From a virus, in the IMG/VR virus record IMGVR_UViG_3300008459_000531, positions 1-20,453 of that record: a stretch of DNA of 20,453 bases; one strand, given 5' to 3'. Position 1 is the stretch's first letter. Every line of letters starts with the position of its first letter. Position numbers and translations under genes: made by a program. Below the pieces are notes generated by a model. That model made no database searches and was not told the origin of the DNA. It saw nothing but the letters and a program-made list of their open reading frames with translations. Shown here one piece after another: positions 3,640-15,998 of this stretch.

Positions 3640-3668
3640 TTTACTATTGACTCGGTATGTGTTATATT
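3640..3668 (+). promoter_or_regulatory. Sigma70-like promoter with extended -10 for the nuclease cassette
   Basis: TTTACT (3640-3645) is followed after 17 bases by TATATT (3663-3668), with a TGT extended -10 element at 3660-3662. It lies between the capsid terminator and the first cassette gene and would give that cassette its own transcription by host RNA polymerase. It is recognised by eye only. Confidence 0.5.
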
Positions 3669-3688
3669 ACTTACTAGGAGGCAATTCA

Positions 3689-4120
3689 ATGAGTGAAAAT
3701 GAAACTGCTATAAAAATTCCGGAAGATAAAAAAACAATATGCGAAATTTGTAATAAAAAATTTCATTCCAAGGTAGGAATAAGCGTACATGTTAGTACAA
3801 TACATAATATTTCGTATGAGCAATATATTATAAAGTATTACAACAACAACCAACGCCCAGTGTGTATTATTTGTTCTAAAGAGACACGTTACGTTAGCAA
3901 AAATATTTCATTTAGAAAATACTGCTCAGAGCATTCCAACGATGCAAGATCTTCGTGGTCTAAAAACAATGGATATGGTGTAAAACAAGATGCCGGATGG
4001 AAACGTGGTCTGACAAAAGAAAATAATGAAACAATTAAAAAACACTCTGAGTGGATGACAGGTGAAAACAATCCTATGCATAAGAATAATTCAAACAATA
4101 GGAATAAAAATGACAATTAG
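3689..4120 (+). CDS. Zinc-finger and NUMOD3-like DNA-binding protein (homing-endonuclease type)
   Basis: This is a 143-residue basic protein. The ATG at 3689 is preceded by a perfect AGGAGG (3676-3681); the frame is open back to a TTG at 3647, but that lies inside the promoter. The N-terminus holds a C2H2 finger (C18, C21, H34, H39). A second metal site follows (C59, C62, C79, H82). A linker with GWKRGLTKEN leads to a NUMOD3-type motif, GENNPMHK (125-132), a DNA-binding module of phage homing endonucleases. No catalytic HNH or GIY-YIG core is visible, so by itself it looks like the DNA-recognition half. Its last 11 bases overlap the following nuclease gene. Its AT-rich, AAA/AAT-heavy codon use contrasts with the capsid gene, which fits acquisition as a mobile gene. 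It may instead be the front half of a frameshifted single gene. Confidence 0.7.
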   Translation: MSENETAIKIPEDKKTICEICNKKFHSKVGISVHVSTIHNISYEQYIIKYYNNNQRPVCIICSKETRYVSKNISFRKYCSEHSNDARSSWSKNNGYGVKQDAGWKRGLTKENNETIKKHSEWMTGENNPMHKNNSNNRNKNDN

Positions 4121-4667
4121 TTATCATTTTAAAAATTATTTAACTGAGCAATCTCTGGGAGAATTCCTTAAATTTGTATTTGGAGGTAAAGTTACCAGCC
4201 AAGTCAAGATAGACAAAAGGATGTCCTGTGATTATTGTATCGCTGGATTAAACGGCAAACTATACATAGAATTTGATGGGCCTTATCATTATACATCTCC
4301 TGTTTGTGCAGTAAACGACGATAGGAAAAAAGTTCTTATACAAGAAAATCCTTTAAATAATATCATCAGGATTCCTTACTTTATTCAGATTGATTCCACT
4401 ATATGGAAATCATTATTTGTTCCATATTTAAGATTTGCTGGTTTACAAGATTATGAGAAAATTAACATCACCACTGATTGGGAGCATGGGTTTATATCAA
4501 AAAAGATTGTATATCCAGCCTCATATTGTTCTCTTGGGGTTAATCGCTTTAAGGATGAACTAAGACAATTTGATAAAATATTAAATAATAAAATCTTTTA
4601 TAGTCTTTGTGAGGCAGCAAAAAAATTAGGAAATAATAACTTAGTATTTCACCACGAACGAGGTTAA
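4110..4667 (+). CDS. Vsr/DUF559-like PD-(D/E)XK nuclease, probable catalytic half of a homing endonuclease
   Basis: This 185-residue protein starts at ATG 4110, with AGGA at 4100-4103 six bases upstream, overlapping the stop of the preceding gene. The frame extends back to a GTG at 4062 that has no binding site. The core reads C-D41-Y-C-I-A, about ten residues, then IEFDGPYHY (E54, D56, H60), then NDDRKK (70-74). This spacing of D, E-x-D-G-x-x-H and D-x-R/K is that of the Vsr/DUF559-like branch of PD-(D/E)XK nucleases, which includes phage homing endonucleases of the I-Bth0305I type. It would cut DNA at the target recognised by itself or by the upstream finger protein. The C-terminal region (about 100-185) is not recognised. 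The function is inferred from motifs; an independent endonuclease or repair-type enzyme is possible. Confidence 0.65.
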   Translation: MTISYHFKNYLTEQSLGEFLKFVFGGKVTSQVKIDKRMSCDYCIAGLNGKLYIEFDGPYHYTSPVCAVNDDRKKVLIQENPLNNIIRIPYFIQIDSTIWKSLFVPYLRFAGLQDYEKINITTDWEHGFISKKIVYPASYCSLGVNRFKDELRQFDKILNNKIFYSLCEAAKKLGNNNLVFHHERG

Positions 4668-9223: not shown

Positions 9224-9769
9224 ATGGCATTCTGGAGCGAAGCAACACTAGATCCAAAAAGACAATATAAATTTAAAGTAACGTTTGGTTATTTAAACGT
9301 TAATGGCAATGAATCAACATTCCTTGCACAATATGCAGATAGACCTGTTTATGCAATTTCTGATGGAACCAAAGTACACTATCTAGACAAAGAATTTGCA
9401 TTCCCAGGAAAAATAACATGGACTCCCATCAAGATAAGATTCGTTGATGCAGTTGGGCCACAAACAGTAAATGTTTCACAAAGAACATATACCTATTTAG
9501 CTAACGCTGGTTATCTAAATCCAGAGCAATCAGGTCCACTAACGACCCCTGCTGAGATGAAGACTATCTCCAAGAGCAAAGCGGTCAATTCAGTCCTAAA
9601 TGTTACTGTAGAAGTTCTTAACTCAGAAGGTTCACCAGTTGATAAATGGACATTAAGAAATGCGTTCGTTCAAACTGTTTCATTAAACCCTCTAGATTAT
9701 TCAGCAGAAGGAATTTTAACGGCAGAATATACTTTCCGCTATGATTGGGCGGAATATATTGGCGTATAA
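9224..9769 (+). CDS. 19: Tail tube protein, gp19 family
   Basis: This 181-residue protein has the size and pattern of T4 gp19 (163 residues), the subunit of the rigid inner tube through which DNA passes. Landmarks are MAFW at the start, DRPVYAISDGTKV, YLDKEFAFPGKITWTPIKIRFVD, and the end LDYSAEGILTAEY...RYDWAEYIGV. AGGAG at 9210-9214 lies nine bases before the ATG. The next gene is a larger paralogue sharing all these landmarks. Confidence 0.95.
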   Translation: MAFWSEATLDPKRQYKFKVTFGYLNVNGNESTFLAQYADRPVYAISDGTKVHYLDKEFAFPGKITWTPIKIRFVDAVGPQTVNVSQRTYTYLANAGYLNPEQSGPLTTPAEMKTISKSKAVNSVLNVTVEVLNSEGSPVDKWTLRNAFVQTVSLNPLDYSAEGILTAEYTFRYDWAEYIGV

Positions 9770-9826: not shown

Positions 9827-10801
9827 ATGGCTTTCTGGAATGACCCATCTTCATTGCTTCCTAAACAGTCGCATAGATGGGTCATTTTTTTAGGTAATAG
9901 CAGCACATTAACAGATAAAGTTAATATACCACATTATTTTGCTAAATCTGTCGATAGGCCAACCTATAAAATAGATTCAGTGCAAGTAAAATATCTTTAT
10001 TCTCACACTTTTAATTTTCCTAAACGACTTGTTTGGAATCCAATAAAAATTCAATTCAACGATGTGGTTATTTTAGATGGCAACCCAAAAGATGGATTTA
10101 TAGATAATTTTATTGTACAACCGAAAATATCATCAGATGGTAAAAGCGTAGAGTCAAATAAAAAAAATGTAGATATACTAGAAGAACGGAAACCCGAAAC
10201 AAGTTTTTTGTCGCGCATTGATTCACCAAGAAGTATTGAAACATCTGCCGAACAGGTTCAAATAGATGGTGGGATAGCTAGTATTATCAGAGGATCAAAC
10301 GCATCGCAAGTAACAGTAAGAGGCGAAGAAGCTTCTAGATCACAATTTGAAACAAAAATAAAATACGATATTTCATATCAAAAATCAACACAATTGTTTT
10401 TTTATGATTTTTTGCATAAATGTGGTTATTTTGATCCAAATGAACTAGATACGGAAGATAAATTATTAAGATTTAGAAGCTATCATTTTAAAAAAAATAT
10501 GGTAGATTCTATTACAAACAAATCAGTTAATTTATTAAACAATAATGATTCTAAATATTCAGACAGCTATATATCATTAGTTGAAATAAACGAATTAGGT
10601 GAATGGCAAGAAGAATGGAAGATCTATAATCCATTAATATCCAGTATAAGCTCTGACAAGCTAGATTATTCAGCGGATAATATTTTAAATATAACTGTTG
10701 ATCTTGTATATGATTGGGCAGAATTAGTCCCACATATCGGTAAAAAATCTCTAGATGAACTTAATAAAGCAAAATTGGATGCATATTTAGCAGCTAAATA
10801 A
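9827..10801 (+). CDS. Second, enlarged tail-tube-like protein (gp19 paralogue)
   Basis: This 324-residue protein shares the landmarks of the preceding tube protein in the same order: MAFW, DRPTYKID, VKYLYSHTFNFPKRLVWNPIKIQF and a terminal LDYSADNILNITVDLVYDWAELV. An extra stretch of about 110 residues (about 88-200; charged, Ser/Asn/Lys-rich, including an ETSAEQVQIDGG segment) splits the tube fold. A C-terminal tail of about 27 residues is added. GAGG at 9815-9818 gives a good ribosome binding site. Gene duplication of the tube is the simplest origin. A likely role is a specialised tube ring, such as an initiator next to the baseplate (as T4 gp48/gp54 have tube-like domains) or the last ring at the neck. 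Which of these applies cannot be seen. Confidence 0.8.
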   Translation: MAFWNDPSSLLPKQSHRWVIFLGNSSTLTDKVNIPHYFAKSVDRPTYKIDSVQVKYLYSHTFNFPKRLVWNPIKIQFNDVVILDGNPKDGFIDNFIVQPKISSDGKSVESNKKNVDILEERKPETSFLSRIDSPRSIETSAEQVQIDGGIASIIRGSNASQVTVRGEEASRSQFETKIKYDISYQKSTQLFFYDFLHKCGYFDPNELDTEDKLLRFRSYHFKKNMVDSITNKSVNLLNNNDSKYSDSYISLVEINELGEWQEEWKIYNPLISSISSDKLDYSADNILNITVDLVYDWAELVPHIGKKSLDELNKAKLDAYLAAK

Positions 10802-10821: not shown

Positions 10822-11697
10822 ATGAAGAATAATTTTGAAGAACGTTTTGAACAAATAAAAAACAATTCAAGTAAAGATGTTGCGCCAACCCTAGCAGAAT
10901 CAAACCTGTTAAATTTTCCAAACTCCACACAATCGGTGGAACTGCCATCAAAAGGTAAATTTTATCCAGAAGGTCATCCTTTAAAGAATAAAGAATATGT
11001 TGAAATAAAAGAGATGACAGCTAGAGAAGAAGATATTCTCACAAATAAATCATATATTAAAAAGGGAATATTGATAGACAAACTAATAGATTCATTATTA
11101 GTAGATAAAAGCATACCAGTTAATACTCTATTGGTAGGCGATAAAAATGCAATAATGGTAGCGGCCAGAATAAATGCATATGGTGCAAATTACGATGTTT
11201 CTGTTAACTGTACAGAATGCAACCAAAAAAACATACTATCAATTGATTTACAAGAAATAAAAGTCAGACAATCGTTTGAATCAATTGGTAACTTTGCTGA
11301 TTCTGATATGAATGAAATCTATCAATCAGATAATGGTAATATAGTTGTTAAATTGCCGCGCACAAAATGGCTTGTAGAAACTAAGCTAATGAATGGCGAG
11401 GATGAAAGAAGAATACTAAACATCCTTGAAGCAAAAAAGAACAAAAATCAACTAGCAGAATTAACTATTTCTGAACAACTAAAGATTATTATAGCCTCAA
11501 TAAACAATATAACAGATACAGCTATATTATTTGAAGCCGTAGATGCAATGCCAGCATATGATGCGAAACAGCTTAGAACAGTTTATCAAAAATTAATTCC
11601 AAATGTTGTAATAGAGAAGAAGTATATTTGCAGTTCCTGCACAGAGGAACAAGAACTGGAGGTTCCTTTTACACAGGAATTTTTTTGGCCTAAATGA
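10822..11697 (+). CDS. 26: gp26-family baseplate hub / tail-assembly chaperone-like protein, zero-frame product
   Basis: This 291-residue protein resembles the T4 gp26 family (Pfam T4_baseplate). It shows VELPSKGKFYPEGHPLKN, EYVEIKEMTAREEDILTNKSYIKKG, IDKLIDSLLVD, and two CxxC pairs (C-T-E-C near 132-135 and C-S-S-C near 271-274) likely to bind one zinc. It ends with TQEFFWPK before tandem UGA codons. T4 gp26 is needed for baseplate hub assembly. Here the gene lies between tube and tape measure genes, where tail-assembly chaperones are encoded. A 56-codon reading frame without its own start continues from the 3' end, so a fraction of ribosomes probably makes a 344-residue extended form. AGGAAG at 10815-10820 is close to the ATG. 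Confidence 0.8.
   Translation: MKNNFEERFEQIKNNSSKDVAPTLAESNLLNFPNSTQSVELPSKGKFYPEGHPLKNKEYVEIKEMTAREEDILTNKSYIKKGILIDKLIDSLLVDKSIPVNTLLVGDKNAIMVAARINAYGANYDVSVNCTECNQKNILSIDLQEIKVRQSFESIGNFADSDMNEIYQSDNGNIVVKLPRTKWLVETKLMNGEDERRILNILEAKKNKNQLAELTISEQLKIIIASINNITDTAILFEAVDAMPAYDAKQLRTVYQKLIPNVVIEKKYICSSCTEEQELEVPFTQEFFWPK
11675..11697 (+). promoter_or_regulatory. Predicted programmed ribosomal frameshift site (+1 or -2)
   Basis: AGGA (11675-11678) sits just before a T7 run (11680-11686), read in zero frame as GAA TTT TTT TGG CCT AAA TGA TGA. Phe-tRNA on TTT can re-pair in either direction; +1 (or -2) movement enters the open frame at GGC (11687). A -1 shift would meet a stop after two codons. 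The AGGA just upstream recalls the Shine-Dalgarno stimulator of bacterial prfB +1 frameshifting. A second GGAGG lies at 11658-11662. Confidence 0.6.
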
Positions 11698-11857
11698 TGA
11701 TTATAGCCGTGCATTATACGAACAGTTGTTCCTACTGAAATATCACGGCGGTTGGTCTTTTATAGAGCTTTATAACTTGCCTGTTGGTCTAAGGAACTGG
11801 TTTTGTGAACGTCTAACAAAACAACTAAAAGAAGAGTCAGATAAGAGCAGAAAGTAA
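11687..11857 (+). CDS. Frameshift extension of the gp26-like gene (GT-type tail-assembly chaperone tail)
   Basis: There are 56 codons in the +1 frame relative to the gp26-like gene. The product begins GLNDDYSRALYEQLFLLK, continues YHGGWSFIELYNLPVGLRNW, then CERLTKQLKEE, and stops at 11855-11857. The frame opens after a stop at 11612-11614 and contains no ATG, GTG or TTG start with a ribosome binding site. Its translation therefore seems to depend on frameshifting in the overlap, most likely at the T7 run. The aromatic, W-x-x-x-x-x-L-P-x-x-x-R-x-W-like helical pattern looks like real coding sequence, and a terminator follows directly. Position and genetics match the T part of lambda G-T chaperones, which bind the tape measure and recruit tube subunits. 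In T4 the gene next to 26 is 51, another hub-assembly factor; homology to it is not shown. Confidence 0.65.
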   Translation, partial: GLNDDYSRALYEQLFLLKYHGGWSFIELYNLPVGLRNWFCERLTKQLKEESDKSRK

Positions 11858-11860
11858 ATT

Positions 11861-11890
11861 AAAAGCGGACCTAAAAAATCCGCTTTTTTT
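11861..11890 (+). terminator. Rho-independent terminator after the gp26-like/extension genes
   Basis: AAAAGCGGA (11861-11869) pairs with TCCGCTTTT (11879-11887) across a nine-base loop and runs into seven T (11884-11890). It begins three bases after the stop codon of the frameshifted frame, which itself argues that frame is the true gene end. Confidence 0.85.
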
Positions 11891-11937: not shown

Positions 11938-14748
11938 ATGGCTGATAACAAAGATGACGATATAAAAACATCGCCAGATGGAATGTCTGAAGAAGGTCTT
12001 ATACGTTTAAGAGAGTATACAAAAAGACACGAAGATCTGGTCGAAATTATAAAAAAAAGCGTTAACGAAGGAGTAAGATATTCTGAGTCTTTGTTAGAGC
12101 AAACAAAAAGATCATTAGAAGCTCAAGCTGCTACATCAAAACTAAACGAAAGTCTCCAATTATCTGAGAGATTTTTAAAAGCAGATATCGAATCTTTAAA
12201 TAAGATGTCGATGGCGTTAGAAACTGCTTTTAAAAATAATTTTGAACAAACTGAAAACTTAAACAGAGAATCAGAAAAATTATCAGAAATAAGAAAACAA
12301 TTAGGCGTTAATACTATAAATTTAGCTGAAGCTGAAAAAAAGCTCGCAGATACTGAGCAAAGGGCAAGAAAAGAAGGAATAAACGAAGATAAATTAAAAC
12401 AGTTAAATGAACTAATGAAAGACAAGGTTAAGTTAAGCGAAGAAGAGCTTAAAATCATAAGGCAACGCGCTGCTAAAGCGGGGAGTTATATTATAGATGA
12501 AAATGAATTGATCGAATTACAGACTGCTATTTTAGATAAAAATAAATCTGTATTAGCGGATCGGATAAAAAAACGTCAAGATGATATAACCCAAACATTA
12601 AAAAATATAGAAATTAATAATGCAGATATCGCTAATCAGATTTCTTCAAATAAACTTAAATCTTTAAGTTTAAAAAAGACAGAAGATTTAACATCTGCAA
12701 CTGGTAGACTTGCTGATAAAATATCTTTTAGTAGTTCTAATACTAATCTTTTTGCTTCTGCGATAATGGCTGCTAGTGGCGGTATCGATAAACTAACAGT
12801 AAACATAGCAGGAAAATTAATAGAATCATTCTTGAGTCCTGAAAAATCTTTAAATAGATTTTTTAACTTTTTGAATAAAAATCTAATTCAATCATCATTT
12901 GAATTTGATAAAAATTTATCTGCTATTAACAAAAGCCTTGGAGGTATGGGTAAAGAATTTGAGAATGTCGCCATGACAACTGCTGGACCTTTTAGAGCAT
13001 CTGCTGTGTCTGGGTTGGCACAATATGGCGTAACACTTGAAGACTTTGGAAAAGCTTATGGTGCTCTTAATTCCAAAGTAAACGGATTTAATCAATTAAG
13101 CGAACAACAAAGAAAACTATTAGCATCTAACGCTGCAACAATGCAAACATTGGGAGTTTCAGCAGAAACTTATGCTTCTTTGACATCAACATTCATGGGA
13201 TCTCTTGGGAGATCTGCTGAAAATACTAACATAGCAATACAATCACTTGCCAAAGATGCTATAGCTGCTGGCAGGAACGTTGCCGAATATACCAGAGAGT
13301 TCGAACAGTTATTGCCAAAATTAACCATATATGCGAGGGAAGCTACTCAAATATTTAAAGAGTTAAACTCATTGTCAGCTATGACAAAAGGAGTCGTTTC
13401 TGCTAGTGATCTTGAAAAATTTGCAGACCAATTTAATACTTGGGATTCTGCAACTGAGTCTGTATCGAAGTTAAACGCTGCACTTGGCGGAACATCTGTT
13501 AGCATACATGATATGATATTAGCAGATCCATCCGAAAGACTAATAATGATCAAAAGAGCTTTCGATGCATCTGGTAAATCTTTTGATGATATGAACAGGG
13601 GATTCAAAACTTTATTAGCCGAAGGATTCGGCGGAGATATGGCAAAAGCTAGTGCCTTTTTTAAAGGTAGTTTGATGGAAGCTAATGATGAAATGCATAA
13701 AATGCAAGCTTCCGAAAAAGAACTTGAGGAAAGAAAACAAAAAAGCATTTCTGCTCAAGAAAAACTAACAAAAGCAATAGAGGGTATGAAAATAGCATTA
13801 ACACCTATTGTTAGTATTTTTAGCACAATAGCTGATATAATTATCAAATTAAACGAAGGTATGGGAGGGTTTGGCGGATTTCTTGCAGTTGGAATACCTC
13901 TTGGAATAATGGCCGTCAGAGGCATGATGATTTTAACTGCGAATACGATAAAAATGTCATTTGGAACTATTTTTGCTGAAATATCGTCTGGATTACAGGC
14001 ACTGTCTGCACAAATAGCAGCAGTCAAGCAAGAGGCTGCAAGCACAACAACCACTACGGGTGGCGGCGGTACACCCAAGGCAAGTGGCGTATTAGGACGA
14101 ATGGGTGGGATAGGATTAATAACTACATTGATAGGCGCAGCCGCTATAGCAGAATCGCAAGCAGAAAAATCACGTCAAGAAAGACAGCAACAAGGAATAA
14201 AAGAAATCAATACTAATAAATTCAGTAGTATAACCCAAACCTCCAACTACCCAGCAATGCCTACGGTTGGTGCTGGAGATATTACTACAAATAAATCTCT
14301 TTATACGATAGATGAATCAACCAATCAATTAACAAAAATAGCCAATATACACCCAAGAGATGAGGCTACAAAAGTCGAACTTGCAACACCAGAAGAAAGA
14401 GCAAAACAACAAAACTTAATGTTAACTCCGCTACAAGATAAAATAGAAAAAATTAATTCTAATCTATATTCCTATAATGATAGACTTGTAAAAGAAACAA
14501 ATAGTAGATCATCAAATCTTGTACAAGAATACGCTTCAATGCAAGAAAAAACTCTTGAAAAACAAGAAAAAATGTTCTCAACGGCAATAAGCCAAGTGTC
14601 AGTTAGAACAAAATTAGAACTAGATAGACCAATAGTTGCAACATTACGCGAAGCAGATGCGAATTATATCATGAACAAGAGTGCAAATATGGCTGCTGCT
14701 TCCCAGCATAGAAAAGATACGGTTGTTGATGAAGTAATTGGAGTGTAA
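11938..14748 (+). CDS. Tail tape measure protein
   Basis: This 936-residue protein sets tail length. Residues 20-250 are almost entirely heptad-like coiled coil. Residues 265-600 are helical with Gly/Ala-rich turns. Hydrophobic segments follow at about 642-668 (GGFLAVGIPLGIMAVRGMMI) and 722-738 (MGGIGLITTLIGAAAIA), separated by a Thr/Gly linker. The C-terminal 200 residues are polar and partly helical. This mix of long coiled coil and central hydrophobic patches is typical of tape measures. The gene follows the chaperone-like genes and precedes baseplate genes, the usual order, and corresponds functionally to T4 gp29 (590 residues). At about 0.15 nm per residue it would specify a tail of roughly 140 nm if fully helical. 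The ribosome binding site is weak (GGA at 11926-11928). Confidence 0.85.
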   Translation: MADNKDDDIKTSPDGMSEEGLIRLREYTKRHEDLVEIIKKSVNEGVRYSESLLEQTKRSLEAQAATSKLNESLQLSERFLKADIESLNKMSMALETAFKNNFEQTENLNRESEKLSEIRKQLGVNTINLAEAEKKLADTEQRARKEGINEDKLKQLNELMKDKVKLSEEELKIIRQRAAKAGSYIIDENELIELQTAILDKNKSVLADRIKKRQDDITQTLKNIEINNADIANQISSNKLKSLSLKKTEDLTSATGRLADKISFSSSNTNLFASAIMAASGGIDKLTVNIAGKLIESFLSPEKSLNRFFNFLNKNLIQSSFEFDKNLSAINKSLGGMGKEFENVAMTTAGPFRASAVSGLAQYGVTLEDFGKAYGALNSKVNGFNQLSEQQRKLLASNAATMQTLGVSAETYASLTSTFMGSLGRSAENTNIAIQSLAKDAIAAGRNVAEYTREFEQLLPKLTIYAREATQIFKELNSLSAMTKGVVSASDLEKFADQFNTWDSATESVSKLNAALGGTSVSIHDMILADPSERLIMIKRAFDASGKSFDDMNRGFKTLLAEGFGGDMAKASAFFKGSLMEANDEMHKMQASEKELEERKQKSISAQEKLTKAIEGMKIALTPIVSIFSTIADIIIKLNEGMGGFGGFLAVGIPLGIMAVRGMMILTANTIKMSFGTIFAEISSGLQALSAQIAAVKQEAASTTTTTGGGGTPKASGVLGRMGGIGLITTLIGAAAIAESQAEKSRQERQQQGIKEINTNKFSSITQTSNYPAMPTVGAGDITTNKSLYTIDESTNQLTKIANIHPRDEATKVELATPEERAKQQNLMLTPLQDKIEKINSNLYSYNDRLVKETNSRSSNLVQEYASMQEKTLEKQEKMFSTAISQVSVRTKLELDRPIVATLREADANYIMNKSANMAAASQHRKDTVVDEVIGV

Positions 14749-15662: not shown

Positions 15663-15998
15663 ATGTTTAATAGATACAATAATTCAGTTCAAATTATAAA
15701 TAGTTCAGAAACATATAGCGATATATTGTTACAAAAAAAATTAAACAGTATAAAACAATATTCTGGTTTTGATTTCACAAAATTAAACGAATTGCTAAAA
15801 CAAGATCTTGACAGAACATTTCATACAGTGGAACCATTTGAAAAATTATATATGATATCTCAAAAATATTATAACAGCCCAGAATTTGGTTGGTTAATAT
15901 GTTACACAAATAAAATATCTAGCGAATTAAATATAAAAATAGGACAAACACTGGTTATATATCTATCTATTGAACAGTTGCTAGAGGCATTAAGATGA
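15663..15998 (+). CDS. LysM-like baseplate protein (gp53-like)
   Basis: This is a 111-residue protein with AGGA (15652-15655) seven bases before the ATG. Residues 1-50 are polar and helical. Residues 52-105 read like a LysM fold: TVEPFEKLYMISQKYYNSPEFGWLICYTN, then LNIKIGQTLVIYL. The Tyr-Trp core (the EFGWLICYTN segment) resembles the LysM-type domain of T4 wedge protein gp53 and of small baseplate LysM proteins such as P2 gpX. These act as protein-protein clamps around the hub or tube, not as peptidoglycan binders. It is much shorter than gp53 (196 residues). The stop overlaps the next start (ATGA), indicating translational coupling to the large hub-type gene. Confidence 0.6.
   Translation: MFNRYNNSVQIINSSETYSDILLQKKLNSIKQYSGFDFTKLNELLKQDLDRTFHTVEPFEKLYMISQKYYNSPEFGWLICYTNKISSELNIKIGQTLVIYLSIEQLLEALR

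Follow-up and report, generated by a model that had tools for sequence, protein, structure and literature searches.

The gp26-family gene in a 20.5-kb virus fragment with T4-type virion genes (the window, i.e. the whole stretch of DNA analysed here) very probably encodes a tail assembly chaperone of the G/GT type (TAC-N/TAC-NC), the long form of which would be made by a programmed +1 frameshift with UUU in the P site before U. Four features visible in the sequences point this way: the gene order, a start-less frame overlapping the end of the gene, constraint on the slip site and on an upstream GGAGG, and homology of the shifted-frame tail to the 'gp51' tail encoded in the -1 frame of cyanophages. 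As for the direction of the shift, +1 is strongly favoured and -2 is left with a small chance.

In the window, a gp23-like capsid gene is followed by a sheath gene, two tube-family genes, the gp26-family gene and a 936-aa coiled-coil ORF (Table 1). Both tube genes match the tail tube family PHROG 4542 (E 5e-12 and 4e-16). The 936-aa ORF had no family match in Pfam and PHROG profile searches and only a coiled-coil match of the SMC type (E 2e-5); its place is that of the gene annotated as tape measure in Flavobacterium phage immuto, and by position we regard it as the tape measure protein. The gp26-family gene thus lies between the tail tube genes and the tape measure gene assigned by position, which is the placement of G/GT genes. 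In lambda, a short and a long isoform are produced from one gene, G/GT, by a -1 slip near its 3' end, and this gene also follows the tube gene and precedes the tape measure gene. The systems differ in that lambda G uses -1 and that the gp26-like G here is much longer (291 aa).

Several other genes of the window are unusual. The tandem tail-tube family genes differ greatly in length (181 and 324 aa), and the sheath protein encoded 5' of them is unusually long (821 aa). Just 3' of the capsid gene, two ORFs overlap in different frames (3647-4120 and 4062-4667, + strand) and have weak matches to HNH endonucleases (PHROG 21964, E 0.004, and PHROG 559, E 8e-5); they are possibly a split or frameshifted homing endonuclease. 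A 111-aa protein (15663-15998, + strand) with weak matches to LysM (Pfam, E 0.01) and to the baseplate wedge family PHROG 7145 (E 8e-4) is possibly a gp53-like baseplate part.

Table 1. Features of the predicted chaperone locus and its neighbors; positions are those of the window.
Feature	Position	Strand	Remarks
Tail-tube family gene, first of two	9224-9769	+	PHROG 4542
Tail-tube family gene, second of two	9827..10801	+	directly 5' of gp26-family gene
Putative TAC-N ('G') ORF, gp26-like, 291 aa	10822..11697	+	zero-frame end EFFWPK*
GGAGG, Shine-Dalgarno-like	11658..11662	+	17 nt upstream of T-run, 20 nt upstream of slip codon
Predicted slip site UUU UUU UGG	11680..11688	+	P-site codon 11683-11685, A-site UGG 11686-11688
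Predicted T tail, +1 frame, 56 aa plus stop (GLNDDYSR...)	11687..11857	+	start-less open frame from 11615
Zero-frame stop UGA, then second in-frame UGA	11695..11700	+	sequence
Hairpin AAAAGCGGA/TCCGCTTTT + T-run, likely intrinsic terminator 3' of T frame	11861..11890	+	sequence
936-aa coiled-coil ORF	11938..14748	+	directly 3' of T frame; tape measure protein by position

The gp26-like ORF belongs to PF12322 (T4_baseplate), the T4 gp26/gp51 baseplate hub assembly family: residues 41-289 match with E 2e-12 and 47.6 bits, the curated cut-off being 24.5. It also matches the baseplate hub family PHROG 150 (E 2e-15), with the match ending at column 233 of 282. An AlphaFold model of the protein has pLDDT 90, and its matches in BFVD are gp26/baseplate-hub proteins, that is, gp26-type viral proteins alone. 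A Foldseek search of the model against the PDB (E <= 0.001) yielded no similar solved structure. No solved counterpart came up by sequence either. The comparisons thus gave no fold link to lambda G or HK97 gp13 and no sequence match to lambda G, which is among the points against the proposal.

The zero-frame ORF terminates with ..EVPFTQEFFWPK*, and in the frame +1 to it 80 codons are open, starting at 11615 and closed by the stop at 11855-11857. This frame was described in an earlier note on the sequence, and its local observations held on inspection. There is no usable start, as the frame contains no ATG or GTG and the lone TTG (11726) is inside the conserved domain; seven Ts occupy 11680-11686, with AGGA (11675-11678) one base 5' of the run; GGAGG and the tandem UGA are found in the overlap (Table 1); and the frame ends three bases before a likely terminator, formed by a hairpin (11861-11887) and the following Ts. 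The same inverted repeat was picked up by a scan, given on the - strand. Among the 13 genes of the window, the gp26-like one alone has a frame that stays open from 80 nt 5' to 160 nt 3' of its stop and to which no separate gene belongs. Dinucleotide shuffling of the region gave an open frame of 80 codons in 0.66% of cases. The overlapping frame is far from chance, and the comparative evidence is far stronger than the shuffle figure.

The peptide had been called non-random, and it proved to be a real domain conserved among relatives. Relatives of the 56-residue tail were found in at least 340 IMG/VR contigs, and an alignment query with the tail reached at least 600 stretches. The only named phages in which the tail was found are Microcystis phage Mel-JY01 and Flavobacterium phage immuto (four records). 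A weak match of the tail to PF20546 (DUF6760; E 0.0017) falls under the cut-off and was taken as a hint only. The same junction (..GGAGGTGCCG..GAGTTTTTTTGGCCTAAGCAATGA) is present in the WOR-3-labelled MAG chromosome CP070664.1, with large ORFs similarly placed; this is either a prophage or a misassembly.

Every one of the 325 scored loci carries the tail in the +1/-2 frame, fused right after the zero-frame F-F; by sample, the same relation was seen in 80/80 first relatives and in 70/70 more distant ones. A -1-frame tail joined at a heptameric U run, as in T4-like -1 systems, is found in none of the 325, and no relative in the clade has it fused in the zero frame. The slip site reads TTT TTT TGG in 306 loci, TTC TTT TGG in 14 and TTT CTT TGG in five. 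The conserved protein frame is the zero frame 5' of the slip and the +1 frame 3' of it, partly due to locus selection. As these loci were collected via tail homology and hence selected for having the tail, we also ran an unbiased scan with the zero-frame motif only, GAGGTNCC N13 TTNTTNTGGCC, in which the third base of either Phe codon was free. Each of the 120 hits was a gp26 gene carrying the tail (two tails being incomplete in the record), and TTT was the second slip codon in every case. A start-less frame that overlaps the 3' end of G and is joined at a conserved slip site, characteristic of G/GT genes, is general in this group. The zero-frame stop of relatives may be UGA, UAA or UAG, 9, 12 or 18 nt past the second F codon. 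AGGA beside the T-run and tandem UGA are not general among relatives; the conserved signals at the junction are GGAGG and the slip codons.

Both signals are under strong synonymous constraint. In the non-redundant set of 237 loci, the slip codons are TTT TTT (224), TTC TTT (9) or TTT CTT (4). Across the 325 loci, the second codon is TTT in 320, CTT in five and never TTC, and the first is TTC in 14, while other Phe codons in the same genes are 25% TTC. On a tree of 236 leaves, codon 2 never changed to TTC and codon 1 did so about six times, compared with 47-63 TTT/TTC changes in three other conserved Phe columns. Of the 237 loci, 214 have GGAGG no more than 45 nt from the run, the spacer being 17 nt in 189 of them and 23 nt in 20; the remainder of these ORFs contains it at 0.40 per kb. 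The Glu codon of GGAGG is GAG in 203 cases and GAA in 8, against a background of 64% GAA, and the preceding residue nearly always has a codon ending in TG, yielding TGGAGGT. Zero-frame third-position conservation peaks at -22 and -19 (GGAGG) and at +2 and +5 (slip codons). No conserved RNA structure was found downstream (z -0.50 vs. -0.38 in the control), and a stimulatory structure 3' of the slip site was rejected on these values; its absence is usual for +1 sites. The conserved start-less frame and the slip site support the proposal of the earlier note that the gp26-family gene is the 'G' partner of a G/GT-type frameshift, and the comparisons with relatives that the note had named as able to refute it came out in its favor.

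The same final frame would be reached if the P-site UUU moved back two bases on U7, pulled by the upstream GGAGG and adding an extra Phe. Such a -2 slip, which we consider unlikely, is known in Mu (PMC5009743); T7 is present in 306/325 loci, codon 1 is biased to TTT too, and an upstream Shine-Dalgarno element aids backward shifts in -1 systems. The TTC TTT TGG variants (14 loci, about six origins) argue against it. There, UUU can re-pair at +1 (UUU), whereas two bases back Phe-tRNA would face UCU, which it reads poorly, and the TTC TTT loci (about six lineages) keep the remaining signal mostly intact. Re-pairing at +1 is available in 325/325 loci, with UUU.U or CUU.U in the P site. The CTT variants cannot tell the two directions apart and were dropped as evidence against -2, since a CUU to UUC move pairs no worse than the prfB slip. 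Distant relatives with a +1-frame tail matching the tail profile have UUU followed by C (SP-15, GXN1), UUU UUU (LIS04) or UUU CUA (LR756508); the -2 slip would be broken in GXN1 (TTC TTT CGT) and LR756508 (TTT CTA), and both retain UUU then a pyrimidine. The note had left the direction open as +1/-2: its shifted frame was correct, and the loss of -2 re-pairing in TTC TTT TGG points to +1. Still, TTT at codon 1 is commoner than +1 at codon 2 alone needs, which counts against the proposal and leaves room for -2, or for a slip at either codon, in the T7 majority.

That the tail is a separate small gene with a non-standard or coupled start is, in our view, very improbable. Some ATG, GTG or TTG does lie upstream in the tail frame at many loci, GGAGG resembles a ribosome-binding site, and the tail is annotated as a separate gene in Mel-JY01. 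In the jumbo phage LR756511 (595-kb record), the tail has an ATG of its own, sharing bases with the zero-frame stop (TAATG), which suggests a further arrangement, with a coupled start. But the candidate starts occupy no single conserved position, so a conserved start codon for the tail was rejected among the 237 loci; 60 of these have no ATG, GTG or TTG in the tail frame 5' of the slip, and a start 4-13 nt past GGAGG is present in only 26. A separate gene would also leave the slip-codon constraint and the beginning of the tail exactly at the slip site without a reason, and T4 and RB43 carry the tail as an in-frame extension of a PF12322 domain. Transcriptional slippage or a sequencing error in the run is hardly credible. 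Errors in homopolymers such as T7 are common, but the identical shift recurs in hundreds of independent assemblies and in the isolates Mel-JY01 and immuto, and the TTC TTTT and TTT CTTT variants leave only four or three Ts in a row, not enough for either, on which grounds both were discarded.

Under the preferred +1 reading, the gp26-family gene would yield the short chaperone (TAC-N, 'G'), and at UUU UUU UGG a minority of ribosomes would slip with Phe-tRNA in the P site. The tRNA would release UUU and re-pair with the overlapping UUU, placing GGC in the A site, and shifted translation would continue to 11857, giving a 344-aa fusion, ...EVPFTQEFF-GLNDDYSR... (TAC-NC, 'GT'). The predicted junction peptide is YICSSCTEEQELEVPFTQEFFGLNDDYSR for +1 and ..EFFFGLNDDYSR for -2, the latter with one extra Phe (+147.07 Da). 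Lambda G/GT serves as the model for function: TAC-N would coat the tape measure protein, and tail-tube subunits would be brought in by the T tail of the less abundant long form; the chaperone role of the gp26-family gene is assigned by this analogy. We infer the occurrence and efficiency of the slip, the chaperone function and the role of GGAGG, which probably tunes the slip via pairing with 16S rRNA.

A known parallel to the slip is prfB (release factor 2), where YUU in the P site before U slips +1 with a Shine-Dalgarno-like element upstream, as predicted here; CUU UGG, resembling the CUU of prfB, is present in five of our loci. The prfB site is CUU UGA: the A site holds a stop and the Shine-Dalgarno element adjoins the E site, whereas here UGG is in the A site, the element is 20 nt upstream (17/23 nt to the run), and autoregulation is not involved. 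Known minority +1 sites in prfB include UUU_U, and in a tested +1 series CCC and UUU rank next behind CUU. At the prfB site of E. coli, UUU_U shifts far more weakly than CUU_U, which counts against the proposal. The helpful Shine-Dalgarno spacings that have been reported adjoin the E site for +1 and are 8-11 nt for -1. The 17-20 nt spacing of GGAGG fits neither textbook case, and this, together with the 23/237 loci lacking GGAGG, also counts against it.

T4 gp26 and gp51 are both PF12322 members (E 9e-64 and 4e-52): they are, by sequence, short and long paralogues, gp51 being the gp26 domain with an in-frame C-terminal tail. T4 and RB43 encode the short and the long form separately and need no shift, while here there is a single gene with a predicted shift. 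The T4 chaperone genes that Vladimirov, Gautam and Davidson meant are reportedly 26 and 51, and this pair agrees with the family membership of both proteins. P-SSM2, S-PM2, HTVC008M and KVP40 resemble the window in having one PF12322 gene with a homologous tail in a shifted frame, and the cyanophage records already label this ORF gp51. Their tail lies in the -1 frame, joined at a run of the U UUU UUC/UUU type immediately 5' of the zero-frame stop, unlike here, where the +1 slip would take place at UUU UGG, with three to four codons left to the stop.

Direct profile comparison of our tail with T4 gp51 gives only a weak match (E 0.2), and the homology link therefore runs through the cyanophage tails. 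The profile of our tail matches those of the cyanophage/KVP40 tails with E 1.5e-7 (best of 40 column shuffles, 0.011), and these match T4 gp51 with E 3.5e-10 (best of 40, 0.034); tblastn of the P-SSM2 tail also reaches the gp51 end of Aeromonas phage 25 (E 3e-4). In PHROG 150, our ORF ends at column 233 and gp26 at 235, and the cyanophage tail takes up columns 238-278, which gp51 covers as well. Through these cyanophage tails, the C-terminal tail of T4 gp51 is in the same family as ours. The homologies and the common boundary imply one junction with three ways of decoding: +1, -1 and two genes. In the Gram-positive phages SP-15, LIS04 and GXN1, a +1-frame tail that annotation misses wholly or in part lies 3' of a gp26-type gene; judging from sequence, these phages probably have the same chaperone arrangement, with UUU then C or U.

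Parts of this picture have precedents. PMC10885494, citing Vladimirov, Gautam and Davidson 2022 (Virology 566:9-15), assigns one short and one long chaperone gene, without a frameshift, to some T4-like phages. The link of T4 genes 26 and 51 to chaperones, drawn in the earlier note, was reportedly already published in 2022 (Virology) and is therefore not new, and gp51 is not merely a neighbor of gp26 but its long paralogue. Vandenendeviridae chaperones are described in PMC12846349 as using a -1 shift at GTTTTT. Tail chaperones are known with shifts of -1, -2 and +1, the last of which is very likely used by the haloarchaeal myovirus HSTV-2 (PMC5009743); the direction is rare, as had been claimed, but has this precedent. 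No description of the +1 group was found in the literature, among open papers. The +1 mode, the depth of its conservation and the oddly spaced Shine-Dalgarno-like element look new. On balance, we favor the view that a large, almost uncultured T4-related clade has a deeply conserved +1 shift at YUU_UGG, stimulated by a Shine-Dalgarno element at an unreported 17/23 nt, and that the junction is decoded in three ways within one family.

If so, hundreds of environmental phage genomes in which a hub gene is annotated next to an unexplained gap would join the tail-chaperone system. A single chaperone junction read by +1, by -1 or from two genes would make the route between these states traceable, and UUU_UGG with a displaced Shine-Dalgarno-like element would provide a clean natural +1 site outside the rules of prfB and dnaX.
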